From: Flavobacteriales bacterium
Lineage (GTDB): Bacteria > Bacteroidota > Bacteroidia > Flavobacteriales_D > Sanyastnellaceae
Assembly: GCA_029238785.1 (NCBI GenBank)
Contig: JAQWFN010000123.1
Span: forward strand, 1-64,000
DNA length: 64,000 bases
Direction: 5' to 3'
In this document: piece after piece, positions 14,541-20,001 of the stretch
Numbering within the stretch: the stretch's first letter is position 1
Layout of the letters: each line of letters opens with the position of its first letter
The notes under the pieces: model-generated
Seen by the model: only the letters and a program-made list of their open reading frames with translations
The model's database searches: none
What the model was told of the DNA's origin: nothing
Made by a program: the position numbers and the translations under genes

Positions 14541-15188
14541 ATGATTCACGAACTCGGCAAAACCAATTCCATTCTACAAGTTTACTTGTCTGAGATAAGA
14601 GACAGTCAAATTCAGCAAGACCGCATGCGTTTCAGAAGGAACATGCAGCGAATTGGAGAGGTTTTGGCCTACGAGTTGAGCAAGACTTTGGATTTCAAAG
14701 AAACCGAAGTTAGCACTCCCTTGGGCGACGCTACTGGTCATGAACTCAAAGAACAACCCGTTCTTGCAGCTATTCTCCGCGCGGGACTGCCATTGCATGA
14801 AGGAGTTCTCAACATTTTTGATCATGCTGATAATGCTTTTGTTTCTGCCTACCGCAAATACCAAAACAACGGTGAGTTTGAAATCGCTATTGAATACATG
14901 TCTAGCCCAGATATAACCGGAAAAACCTTAATTCTTTGCGATCCAATGATTGCCACTGGAGCGAGCATGGAACTGGCATTTCGGGCCTTACTGAAACGAG
15001 GGATCCCAGAGAAAGTCTATGTGGTTTCAGCCATTGTAAGCAATCAAGGAATAAACTACTTACGCAAGCACATGCCCGAGAACACCTCCTACTGGTGCGG
15101 AGCTGTTGACTTAGAACTAACGGCAAAAGCATACATTGTTCCTGGTTTAGGCGACGCAGGTGATTTAGCTTACGGTGCAAAAAATTAA
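14541..15188 (+). CDS. upp: Uracil phosphoribosyltransferase
   Basis: Predicted 215-residue pyrimidine salvage enzyme that converts uracil and PRPP to UMP. The PRPP-binding loop is LILCDPMIATGASMELAF near residues 130-147. The uracil-binding C-terminal stretch includes PGLGDAGDLAYG. The N-terminal segment HELGKTNSILQVYLSEIRD is family typical. Sixty bases separate it from the deacetylase, so it may have its own promoter. The next gene follows after 12 bases. Confidence 0.95.
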   Translation: MIHELGKTNSILQVYLSEIRDSQIQQDRMRFRRNMQRIGEVLAYELSKTLDFKETEVSTPLGDATGHELKEQPVLAAILRAGLPLHEGVLNIFDHADNAFVSAYRKYQNNGEFEIAIEYMSSPDITGKTLILCDPMIATGASMELAFRALLKRGIPEKVYVVSAIVSNQGINYLRKHMPENTSYWCGAVDLELTAKAYIVPGLGDAGDLAYGAKN

Positions 15189-16354: not shown

Positions 16355-16672
16355 ATGATGGAAGAGAACAAAAAACCACAATTGAACATCGAATTGAGCG
16401 AAGAAGTTGCTGGAGGCACATATTCGAATTTAGCTATCATTACACATTCAGCGGCTGAATTTATCCTTGACTTCATTCGAATTATGCCTGGTGTACCTAA
16501 GGCTAAAGTTAAGTCGAGAGTGATCATCACTCCTCAGCATGCGAAACGACTCATGCGCGCACTCAACGAGAACATCAAGAAATACGAAAGTCAACACGGT
16601 GTGATTAAAGAAGCTCCAGGTCCAGAAATGAACCTTCCAATGAACTTCAGCGGACCACAAGGAGAAGCTTAA
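16355..16672 (+). CDS. DUF3467 family protein
   Basis: Small 105-residue acidic cytoplasmic protein matching DUF3467: core EVAGGTYSNLAIITHSAAEF, then DFIRIMPGVPKAKVKSRVI and the closing TPQHAKRLMRALNENI. Its role is unknown; members are widespread in Bacteroidota. It is ten bases after the HAD gene. Its stop overlaps the convergent dihydroorotase-like gene by four bases. Confidence 0.88.
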   Translation: MMEENKKPQLNIELSEEVAGGTYSNLAIITHSAAEFILDFIRIMPGVPKAKVKSRVIITPQHAKRLMRALNENIKKYESQHGVIKEAPGPEMNLPMNFSGPQGEA

Positions 16673-17940
16673 TCTTCTTGCAATACCAATTGTTCTCCGT
16701 TTACAATACCGTAAACTTTACCGGGAAGTGTTTGTCCGATTATTGATGAGTTCAGTGATTTACTGATCCAGCTATCTTTAGTGTATTCACTAGAAACATC
16801 AGCTGAAAACAGCGTAAACTCGGCCTTATTTCCGAGCTCAATACTTTGCTGCTCATCTCCTAAGACCTGCCTTGGTCCAATGGCTAAAGCATGTACAATT
16901 TGATCGATGCCAAGTTTCTCAGCGCTTCCTTTGCAAATCAATGAAAACGCGGCTTCGATGGTACTGTTTCCAAAAGCAGCATGTTCGAATTCGCGTTTTT
17001 TGTTTTCAATATTCTCCGGTTCGTGGTTAGAACAGATCACGTCGATGGTGCCGTCTTTCAATCCTTTGATCAGTGCTAAGCGGTCGCTTTCTTCACGAAA
17101 CGGAGGAAGGACTTTGAGGTTCGAGTCAAAGCTCGCAAGGTCTTTATCAGTGAAACACAATTGCTGAGCAGCCACACCTGCCGTGATGTTTAGTCCTTCT
17201 TTTTTGGCTTTGCGCACCATTTCTACTGCTCGTTTACTTGAAAGGAGCATCAGATGTAGTTTCCCCCCTGAATAACGAAGCACTTCAATTTCTCGTGCAA
17301 CTCGAATTTCTTCAGCCACAGAAGGAATTCCTTTCAAACCAAGACTATTGCTCATTTTACCTTCATGCATCACTCCGCCATCAGCCAAATCAGGATCCAT
17401 GCAAATGCTCATTAAAGGCACATCGAGTTCTCTGCTGTAATCCAAGCTACGGTTCATGAGTGCAGTTCGCTCAATGGGTTTATCATCACTAAAAGCAACA
17501 GCACCAACAGACATCATATCAAACATTTCACTCATCTGTTGTCCTTTTCCTCCCTGTGAAATGCAACCTGCAGGCAGTAAGTCAACCGCGTGTCCAGCAG
17601 AACGAGATCTAAGGTAAACCACTTGAGCTTTAGAGTCTATTGCTGGCAGTGTTGAAGGCATGCAAAGCACTCGGGTAAAACCACCCTTCGCTGCAGCATC
17701 CAAACCATTCAACAGGCCTTCTTTGTATTCAAATCCCGGATCTCGAAAATTGGCTTTTAAATCGATCCAACCCAAAGACAAATTCATTCCTTTTGCATTG
17801 ATCAGACGATCTTCCTTCTCCGCTTTGAGCGACGATTTGATGTCTTGAATAATGCCATTTTCAATCAACACATCACGGACTTTATTGTGATGTTTCCCTT
17901 TAGGGTCTAAGATTAAAGCAGATTGAATGATCCAACGCAT
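16669..17940 (-). CDS. Dihydroorotase-like protein with metal-site residues lost (PyrC'-type)
   Basis: This 423-residue amidohydrolase-fold protein aligns by eye along its whole length with type I dihydroorotase: the N-terminal beta sandwich (ALILDPKGKHHNKVRDVLIENG), FSDDKPI, the loop around LKGIPSVAEEIRVAREIEVL and VLPPFREESDR. However, catalytic positions are changed. The HxH of IDxHxHxREPG is IDLKANFRDPG; the His-Glu of the HCED motif is ICMD; the second His of the HxxH motif is Leu (LHLMLL); and the Asp of TDHAPH is Asn (SNHEPE). It therefore probably does not bind zinc or make dihydroorotate. Known inactive homologues scaffold aspartate transcarbamoylase. A neighbouring BatA-type gene follows the same arrangement I recall from other Bacteroidota. 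Confidence 0.88.
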   Translation of the reverse strand: MRWIIQSALILDPKGKHHNKVRDVLIENGIIQDIKSSLKAEKEDRLINAKGMNLSLGWIDLKANFRDPGFEYKEGLLNGLDAAAKGGFTRVLCMPSTLPAIDSKAQVVYLRSRSAGHAVDLLPAGCISQGGKGQQMSEMFDMMSVGAVAFSDDKPIERTALMNRSLDYSRELDVPLMSICMDPDLADGGVMHEGKMSNSLGLKGIPSVAEEIRVAREIEVLRYSGGKLHLMLLSSKRAVEMVRKAKKEGLNITAGVAAQQLCFTDKDLASFDSNLKVLPPFREESDRLALIKGLKDGTIDVICSNHEPENIENKKREFEHAAFGNSTIEAAFSLICKGSAEKLGIDQIVHALAIGPRQVLGDEQQSIELGNKAEFTLFSADVSSEYTKDSWISKSLNSSIIGQTLPGKVYGIVNGEQLVLQED

Positions 17941-17944
17941 GATG

Positions 17945-19987
17945 CTAAAACAGTTTTATAAAAATCACTTCTAAAAACAAAAAGGCCAAGGCCAAAACAA
18001 GGAACATCCACCACAGTGTTCGTCCTTCATCTATATCCGCCACAAGCGCGGCAATGCGATCTATATCCCCTTCAAAAACGGCAGCATTACTCCAGTTTTT
18101 TTCATTCAGAACACCCTGCCATTCGCTTATTGAATAGGCTTGAGTGGCGCTTTCTAAACGAGAATAGTTAAAGCTCAAAGCTTCTTTTAGTACTTCTCCT
18201 TGTCCCAATTCATATTGCCCAGCATCTTGAATTTGACTGTGCACAAACAATTGCGTTTTACCTCCTAATTGTCTTGATTCAGGAATAAAGGTAAACTCAT
18301 TGTCTTTACTGCGAATTTCAAAAACTTCGTCGTTCTGCAAACCTTTGTTAGACAATTCAATTACCACCTCATCGCTTACGGGGTAGTACAATGGTGTTTT
18401 TCGCTGACTAAATTCGGCAATCCTAAGTAAACTTGGCACAAAGAGGGCGTGCTGAGCAAAATTGCTTTGTGAGCTCGACAAAGAAGTAGCCAAAAGATAA
18501 AAGCGACCATTTCCAAGAGGATAGGCAGCTAAAAAGCTCGTTCCTGATTGAAGTGAAAGCAGCTGTTCTTCATCGTTTCTTGAAGATCGATTGATGACAT
18601 AAGCTCCATCACCCTTCGGTAAATCAATGTTTCCATTTAATGATTCAAAAACACCTGAGTAGATGAAGTGGTCTAAATTTATTTCATCCACCTTAAAACT
18701 TCCGATAGATTTAGCAATCTGGCTATTAGCTAAAGCTAAGGTAAGTTCGTTATAAGTGCTCACATCTCCATTTTCTGAAGGAATAAGCAAACAAGTTCCT
18801 CCATTGCGGGTATAGTTTTCAAGTTCATTAACCAAGCCAGAACTCACAGCATCTAGTTGATTCAAGATGAGCAATTGATAAGCACTCAATTCTCCATAAT
18901 TCACCTGACCTTCGCTCATTGAACTGTAAGCATAAAAGGGATCGTTGGCGAAAACCTTCTCTACATTGCTTCCCGCGCTTTTGCCTTTGATGTCGAGAAT
19001 ACTGATTTGACTTGCAACATTGTACGAAAAGAAAAATTCGTCGTCGAAAGTCACGGGATAATCCTCAATACTCAAGCTGGCAAACTGATTCCCAGCAGAG
19101 GTTTGGGTGAAAGTAAGACTGGTATCAGTCGCAACTCCAGGAACCAATTTAAAGCTACCAATGGCTTTCTTAGCACCGTTGATATTGAGTTGTAAGGGGA
19201 TGTTCTCAAGAACCTCATCTGAGTTATGCTTCACTCTTAAATGAAGCACCTCAGGTTGATTCAAGACGCGCACAGGAGTATCAAACCACACACTATCGAT
19301 GTAAACATTCACGTCAATGGCCGAAAGCTGAGGAACAAAGCGAACATTAATCAAACTATCTGCTTTAAAATCTGCCGACAATTCGTGCGTGTTTTTCTGA
19401 AGATCTGACAAGAGAAAAGAAAGTCGTTCACCTTCTAGTTCATTCGATTTCAGCAGGTCGTTCTGACGAGAAATCACATCTTCCAACTTTCTAACTTGCG
19501 CTGAAACTTGTATCTCATCAATCAACTCTTTTGCTTCTTCCTTACTCACCAATCGTTGGTGCCTTCCTTCGAAATCATTGGTGATGATTTGAAAACGATC
19601 TGTTGGTCCGTAGGCCAAAAGCAGCTCTCTAGCCTTATTCTTGGCTACTTCAAGCAGTTGTCCTTCTTCGCTCTCACCTTCCATCGAAAAGCTATTATCG
19701 ATGTAAATAGAAATAGCACGGTCTCCTTGGGCTTTGTTGTTTTCGTGGAGGGGAATAAAGGGCTGCGCAAAGGCCAAAATCAAACAAGCTAATGCAATTA
19801 AACGGGCAAAAAGTATAAGGAAGTGCTTGATTTTCGAGCGCGACTTGGTTTCTTGTTGAACCTCTTTTAGAAAAGATACATTGGAGAATGTAACTTTGCG
19901 AAAGCGACGAAAATTAAATAGGTGAACAATAATGGGAATCAACAGGGCGAAGAGTGCCCACAATATTTCCGGTCGTGCAAAGCTCAT
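17945..19987 (-). CDS. BatA-domain, VWA-like membrane protein
   Basis: This is a 680-residue protein starting MSFARPEILWALFALLIPII; the frame's TTG nine bases upstream is rejected. Residues 1-80 form the BatA domain with two transmembrane helices (LFALLIPIIVHLFNFRRF and HFLILFARLIALACLILAFA). A von Willebrand A-like domain follows, with the MIDAS-type IDNSFSM near residue 97. A long beta-rich periplasmic region and a C-terminal transmembrane helix (LWWMFLVLALAFLFLEVIFI) complete it. Homologues occur near Bat/MoxR-type systems, but no MoxR ATPase is present here. It lies four bases upstream of the dihydroorotase-like gene and is probably co-transcribed with it. Confidence 0.85.
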   Translation of the reverse strand: MSFARPEILWALFALLIPIIVHLFNFRRFRKVTFSNVSFLKEVQQETKSRSKIKHFLILFARLIALACLILAFAQPFIPLHENNKAQGDRAISIYIDNSFSMEGESEEGQLLEVAKNKARELLLAYGPTDRFQIITNDFEGRHQRLVSKEEAKELIDEIQVSAQVRKLEDVISRQNDLLKSNELEGERLSFLLSDLQKNTHELSADFKADSLINVRFVPQLSAIDVNVYIDSVWFDTPVRVLNQPEVLHLRVKHNSDEVLENIPLQLNINGAKKAIGSFKLVPGVATDTSLTFTQTSAGNQFASLSIEDYPVTFDDEFFFSYNVASQISILDIKGKSAGSNVEKVFANDPFYAYSSMSEGQVNYGELSAYQLLILNQLDAVSSGLVNELENYTRNGGTCLLIPSENGDVSTYNELTLALANSQIAKSIGSFKVDEINLDHFIYSGVFESLNGNIDLPKGDGAYVINRSSRNDEEQLLSLQSGTSFLAAYPLGNGRFYLLATSLSSSQSNFAQHALFVPSLLRIAEFSQRKTPLYYPVSDEVVIELSNKGLQNDEVFEIRSKDNEFTFIPESRQLGGKTQLFVHSQIQDAGQYELGQGEVLKEALSFNYSRLESATQAYSISEWQGVLNEKNWSNAAVFEGDIDRIAALVADIDEGRTLWWMFLVLALAFLFLEVIFIKLF

Positions 19988-19993
19988 TAAGCA

Positions 19994-20001
19994 CAAATTT
20001 A
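19994..20001 (-). promoter_or_regulatory. -7 box TAAATTTG before the BatA-domain gene
   Basis: On the minus strand a perfect TAnnTTTG box ends six bases before the ATG at 19987. A near copy (TAAATTTC) lies directly upstream. The predicted transcript would be leaderless or have a leader of only one or two bases. Confidence 0.5.

Follow-up and report, generated by a model that had tools for sequence, protein, structure and literature searches.

A dihydroorotase homologue without its metal site as a likely subunit of aspartate transcarbamoylase in most Bacteroidia

Introduction

What does a dihydroorotase (DHO) homologue do once most of its metal ligands are gone, and with which protein does it work? 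These questions are raised by a gene in a 64,000-nucleotide stretch of DNA from a Flavobacteriales bacterium of the class Bacteroidia (contig JAQWFN010000123.1), hereafter referred to as the window. An initial annotation, made from the DNA alone, had proposed that the gene encodes an inactive DHO retained for a non-enzymatic job, like the PyrC' partners of aspartate transcarbamoylase (ATCase), and that a neighbouring BatA-type gene hints at a different role.

Passages of PMC7053772 divide ATCases into classes A1 and A2 and describe the P. aeruginosa pseudo-DHO (pDHO) as inactive yet necessary for ATCase activity, the two proteins forming a dodecamer. A DHO-ATC reactor is described in part of PMC4581275. 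Experiments have revealed an ATCase with a dead DHO in Pseudomonas, as a subunit, and in fungi, as a domain. Among the matches listed from the open-licence literature, no title concerned an inactive-DHO family of Bacteroidia, which may be known elsewhere.

Fold and metal site of the window protein

The gene and its metal-ligand codons, with places counted from the start codon, are as follows.

16669..17940, minus strand: pseudo-dihydroorotase (pseudo-DHO) of the type-I DHO fold, 423 aa, full-length open frame with ATG start and TAA stop
17755-17757, minus strand: K62, degenerate metal-ligand codon
17749-17751, minus strand: N64, degenerate metal-ligand codon
17482-17484, minus strand: D153, ligand codon retained
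17404-17406, minus strand: I179, degenerate metal-ligand codon
17245-17247, minus strand: L232, degenerate metal-ligand codon
17026-17028, minus strand: N305, degenerate metal-ligand codon

The type-I DHO match spans residues 2 to 417 of the protein (E 4e-72). Its AlphaFold2 model has a pLDDT of 92.9, and the top Foldseek match of this model is the DHO chain of the Aquifex aeolicus class-A1 DHO-ATC dodecamer (3d6n_A, TM 0.95). The top two rows in VIA-align are ATC-bound Aquifex DHO structures (Z 57.4 and 56.9, the latter with an rmsd of 1.6 over 418 aligned residues), with which Thermus DHO, at Z 56.5, is tied. Unlike the window protein, the Aquifex DHO has zinc ligands and works in the complex. 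These ligands are, in passages of PMC3880350, His61, His63, Asp153, the β-site His180 and His232, and Asp305 at 2.7 Å. In the alignment to 3d6n the window protein has K, N, D, I, L and N at the sites of H, H, D, H, H and D, with five of the six ligand positions replaced and D153 the sole one kept. The sites aligned to N95, G154, E182, A307 and H309 are likewise altered, and H306 is retained together with D153. The alignment confirms the losses that the initial annotation had read from the motifs (K-x-N for HxH, Ile for the HCED His, Leu in HxxH, Asn for the TDHAPH Asp), and the length of the match, the pLDDT and the TM score bear out its view that the rest of the fold is intact.

The TIGR00857 'dihydroorotase' model gives the protein a score of 299.9 against a cut-off of 279.05, and none of the 24 other models listed for it reaches its own cut-off. 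The protein passes this score cut-off although it lacks the metal site of a PyrC dihydroorotase (HxH, Asp/carbamyl-Lys, HCED, HxxH, TDHAPH). The earlier warning of misannotation was right: the gene receives its dihydroorotase name from a curated model, and pathway reconstructions and essentiality screens in these bacteria can accordingly be led to the wrong gene.

Loss of the metal site across the class

The losses are class-wide and not private to the window gene. Among 160 type-I rows, the six ligand residues are all kept in 30, zero to three are kept in 130, and four or five in none. The two HxH histidines occur together in none of the 130 degenerate rows, no two of which are identical. Rows from outside Bacteroidia are intact in 28 of 30 cases, the degenerate pair being L186 and L196, and the other 128 degenerate rows come from class genomes or from named records, two of them (L050 and L080) with unlikely titles. 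The titles of these two contigs name Bifidobacterium breve and Saccharospirillaceae, but the pseudo-DHO on them is of the Bacteroidia type, and they are probably mislabelled bins. The single intact row within the class (L189) comes from genome G131. L104, the one fully intact sequence in a set of 110 rows that includes four paralogue loci, was counted as intact and given no class, because its record carries the label Actinomycetes and its branch is a basal one beside Aquifex; its intact DHO adjoins pyrB. The locus of L186 (also L223; genome G155, family code f31), a degenerate type-I DHO outside the class, has no pyrB in the fetched flank.

Within the GTDB family of the window, 59 of the 61 genomes sampled contain a single match at 1e-20, and in all 30 sequences read both the first His of HxH and the His of HCED are gone. 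The nearest relative (L007, 76% identical) still has a His at the N64 position. Across 106 family rows, 14 and 12 residue types occupy the positions of His61 and His63 with no new consensus, which argues for decay and not for a new site. The same observation bears on the idea that the metal site has been rebuilt and the protein still acts as an amidohydrolase or dihydroorotase, be it on the old substrate or on a different one. The window protein retains D153 and H306, and passages of PMC3880350 report that the Aquifex DHO H180A/H232A remains active despite the loss of its β site; however, the α-site ligands His61 and His63 are here gone too, with no new consensus at either, and we regard a rebuilt enzyme as highly improbable.

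The decay is concentrated at the active site. Of 66 positions conserved at ≥95% in the intact rows, 41 still carry the same residue in ≥80% of the degenerate rows. The biggest collapses in conservation are mostly at metal and substrate positions (61, 63, 65, 95, 153, 154, 180, 182, 232, 305, 307 and 309), and further collapses are found at 93, 259, 313 and 326. In five close pairs, all from the GTDB family of the window, dN/dS lies between 0.03 and 0.07; between the window gene and L007, dS is saturated. As judged from these substitution patterns, selection keeps the Bacteroidia copies for a purpose other than catalysis. A functionless pseudogene in decay would agree with the lost metal site, but not with the full-length frame, the low dN/dS or the presence of a profile match (≤1e-40) in 261 of 296 class genomes, a figure that counts profile matches, not all read as sequences, and includes the intact gene of G131; the other 35 genomes have no match at this threshold. 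The pseudogene reading was rejected on purifying selection and distribution, and is hardly credible.

A maximum-likelihood DHO tree of 86 rows was calculated with the active-site columns masked. In this tree, which comes from a quick search with SH-aLRT as its sole support and many open forks, a single clade (SH-aLRT 98) holds 53 of the degenerate rows, and three state changes suffice. One degenerate clade and three changes indicate that the main loss most likely took place once, near the base of the class, with two more losses outside it (L186 and L196). The nearest relatives in the tree, whose outgroup is Aquifex alone and from which Pseudomonas PyrC' sequences are absent, are intact DHOs of the same phylum, which points to an origin separate from that of Pseudomonas PyrC'.

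Other dihydroorotases

The second dihydroorotase that the initial annotation had suggested looking for is present in the window genome, on contig C66. It is of the PRK09236 type (NF006688, 704.5 bits against a cut-off of 535), keeps the Lys, HCED, HxxH and TDHAPH motifs, and has QxH in place of HxH; the P. gingivalis structure 2gwn is its nearest match. Both this protein and the window protein are amidohydrolases annotated as dihydroorotase, but the two are only distantly related. In a sample of 80 genomes, chosen to include all class genomes without the pseudo-DHO gene (44 with it, 36 without), a PRK09236 DHO accompanies the gene in 43 of 44 genomes. The exception is G131, with its intact type-I DHO next to pyrB. 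The type-II DHO model is over its cut-off in none of 40 genomes, that of the window included; in these 40 it gives three weak matches, two of them within PRK09236 frames. Of the three DHO types, only the PRK09236 protein was detected in the 15 class genomes that carry PyrI (at the thresholds applied), and this speaks for it as the enzyme in use.

The window genome encodes a second PRK09236-type protein (L002:1423-2814, on contig C15 of G000), which lacks the carbamylated Lys and the HCED Cys and has an Asp-Asp aligned near the Lys site, as in type-I enzymes. It is possibly another non-canonical DHO paralogue, to judge from these residues. The frame that follows it presumably encodes a DAHP synthase/chorismate mutase, which it resembles by eye. 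In the seven genomes of family f76 (G337, G365, G389, G411, G432, G449, G467), pyrB is present at 48-51% identity, and there is no pseudo-DHO/type-I profile match better than 1e-28, no PRK09236 match at 1e-80 and no TIGR00856 match at 1e-10.

Distribution with PyrB and PyrI

PyrI occurs in 15 of the 296 class genomes, all among the 35 without a pseudo-DHO profile match. The two co-occur in 0 of 296 genomes (Fisher 5e-16 with kinship ignored; the genomes are related, the counts are not independent, and the PyrI genomes may be one clade). PyrI was not found in the window genome.

In the 80 chosen genomes, a PyrB at least 60% identical to that of the window organism accompanies the gene in 41 of 44 genomes and is found in 5 of the 36 without it. 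The 41 PyrBs are 64-82% identical to the window PyrB (the window genome itself, 100%). The three exceptions are G131 (PyrB 46%), G539 (53%, with a very diverged copy of the gene) and G320 (a weak copy and no PyrB match). The five gene-less genomes with a similar PyrB (66-77%) are G480, G487, G527, G485 and G533. In the first three, the contig start cuts the BatA-type gene where the pseudo-DHO gene should follow. In G485 and G533 the gene and its BatA neighbour are both absent with no visible contig break, which counts against a partnership with PyrB, as do the weak copy of G320 without PyrB, the diverged copy of G539 with a 53% PyrB, and the 48-51% PyrBs that occur in f76 and G352 without either partner. 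The arrangement in the window genome also counts against it: pyrR-pyrB lies on contig C102 and the pseudo-DHO gene on C95, so that the genes are not adjacent. The PyrBs of the 15 PyrI genomes are 33-38% identical to that of the window, and among the other genomes without the gene the values are 48-51% (the seven of f76, and G352), 43-45% (three genomes of f5) and 32% (G376). No PyrB match was found in G225, G334, G363 and G463, all without the gene; the joint absence in G334 and G363 was counted in favour of a partnership. In G376 the gene was not found behind the BatA-type gene, where 307 bases of contig are left, or elsewhere, and sampled genus-mates keep it; the sole PyrB match of this genome is of a different type, which likewise speaks for a partnership.

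In a PyrB tree of 66 rows, made by a quick search, the 34 partnered PyrBs included group together with those of G480, G487, G527, G485 and G533 (SH-aLRT 88). The PyrBs of f76, G352, G539 and f12 adjoin this group, and the nine PyrI-type PyrBs in the tree make up a clade of their own (SH-aLRT 96). The PyrB of the window organism matches the Aquifex ATC chain (3d6n) at 4e-60.

A search for PyrB sites lost together with the partner supports no claim. Eight of 92 conserved positions seemed lost in lineages without it, but no effect was left after leave-one-out correction. Partnered PyrBs of like overall identity depart equally often (9/99, 14/100, 14/98 and 8/97) as the partnerless ones of f76 and G352 (11/92 to 14/92); in f5 the value is 23/92.

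The window protein is probably a catalytically dead type-I DHO that serves as a structural subunit of ATCase, like PyrC'. The non-enzymatic job proposed initially is in this respect supported, as far as genes can tell, by the separate DHO, the purifying selection, the focal loss, the exclusion of PyrI and the association with one type of PyrB. A protein that partners PyrB but chiefly regulates it, sensing nucleotides like PyrI instead of holding the enzyme together, would also be distributed in complementary fashion to PyrI. The nucleotide inhibition of the P. aeruginosa enzyme is, however, ascribed in passages of PMC7053772 to destabilisation of the complex and not to allostery, and a chiefly regulatory role appears very unlikely.

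The BatA-type neighbour

The pseudo-DHO gene is flanked by the following two genes.

17945..19996, minus strand: BatA-type membrane protein (PF07584 / TIGR02226 two_anch), stop 4 bases before the pseudo-DHO start
16355..16672, plus strand: DUF3467 protein, convergent, with a 4-base overlap with the pseudo-DHO 3' end

It is probable that the BatA-type gene belongs to the same operon as the pseudo-DHO gene. A BatA-type gene lies immediately upstream in 60 of the 75 named loci with enough flank, and no such match is present there in the other 15, which include Flavobacteriaceae, Spirosomataceae, Sphingobacterium and some Chitinophagaceae; in one Flavobacteriaceae locus (L089) its place is taken by DUF2400. 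A full-length BatA match (1e-30) is found in 41 of the 44 genomes with the pseudo-DHO gene and in 11 of the 36 without, compared to 41/44 and 5/36 for PyrB. Divergence scores, taken as E-values against window-centred queries, correlate between the pseudo-DHO and the BatA-type protein with rho 0.82 (n=37), against 0.68 (n=40) for PyrB. The partial correlation with BatA given PyrB is 0.67, and that with PyrB is 0.44 given PRK09236 and 0.25 given BatA. When the six fastest genomes are removed, the values given PRK09236 are 0.30 for PyrB and 0.68 for BatA. The divergence correlation favours BatA over PyrB as rate partner. It was not used as proof, because the E-value scores are window-centred and linked genes share history.

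These data are the basis for a reading in which the protein works with the upstream BatA-type membrane protein in a role unrelated to pyrimidines. The position upstream in most loci, the 4-base spacing in the window and the top correlation, which holds given PyrB and without the fast genomes, all speak for it. The genes also occur apart, however. Besides the 15 loci without an upstream match, no BatA-type match at 1e-8 exists anywhere in G150, G067 and G135, which have the gene (a copy too diverged is possible), and a BatA-type gene occurs without the pseudo-DHO in three PyrI genomes (G408, G429, G506) and in G225, G334, G363, G376 and G463. Shared history of linked genes moreover raises the correlation by itself. 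The BatA-type gene is probably not required, and we consider a role unrelated to pyrimidines unlikely. The hint of a different role, drawn initially from the neighbouring gene, is weaker than the proposed job with PyrB, in spite of the adjacency and the correlation.

The upstream linkage and the higher correlation leave room for a second role of the pseudo-DHO, which might both join PyrB trimers and tie ATCase to the membrane through the co-transcribed BatA-type protein. We hold such a bifunctional protein to be distinctly improbable. If it existed, most Bacteroidia would carry out the first committed step of pyrimidine synthesis with a membrane-associated, differently regulated enzyme, which PyrI-bearing lineages would have exchanged for PyrI.

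A uracil phosphoribosyltransferase gene (PF14681) lies at 14541-15188 of the window, at a distance of 1.5 kb from the pseudo-DHO gene. Only 4 of 80 named loci have a homologue nearby.

Proposed assembly and origin

In Pseudomonas the pseudo-DHO gene typically lies beside pyrB. The class-A2 ATCase of Pseudomonas (PyrB + PyrC') resembles the case described here in having a full-length DHO homologue without catalytic site that is kept with PyrB. Full-length type-I homology, missing ligands and catalytic residues, a further DHO and no PyrI are all found in the window genome. Unlike in Pseudomonas, the window gene is not beside pyrB, a feature not counted as defining class A2, and the complex is here a predicted one. 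The pseudo-DHO domain of the fungal CAD-like Ura2 is likewise an inactive DHO retained with ATCase, according to passages of PMC7053772 and PMC4581275, but it is a domain of one large polypeptide, whereas the window protein is a separate chain. By analogy with the Pseudomonas class-A2 enzyme, two PyrB trimers would be held together as a dodecamer by pseudo-DHO dimers, which may make PyrB stable or active, and the dihydroorotate ring would be closed by the PRK09236-type enzyme of contig C66. Most of the class appears to run ATCase with a dead dihydroorotase as subunit. The apparent swap of the pseudo-DHO for PyrI, together with the other losses, offers a testable system for the replacement of a non-catalytic subunit.

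Apart from G131, only relatives outside the class show adjacency to pyrB. In 7 of 20 loci, each about 10 kb long and fetched from outside the class, pyrB is directly followed by an intact gene, the arrangement to be expected for a class-A1 DHO-ATC pair. From the trees and neighbourhoods we infer descent of the pseudo-DHO from the intact DHO of such a pyrB-DHO pair. The simplest history would start with an ancestral pair; the PRK09236 enzyme would then have arrived, the old metal site been lost and the old chain stayed as a subunit, to be dropped where it was superseded by a PyrI-type ATCase or a different PyrB.

One locus outside the class (L196 / L222, genome G061, family f12) carries a separately degenerate DHO directly after pyrB, the open frames overlapping, and may represent an adjacent-gene version of the same design.
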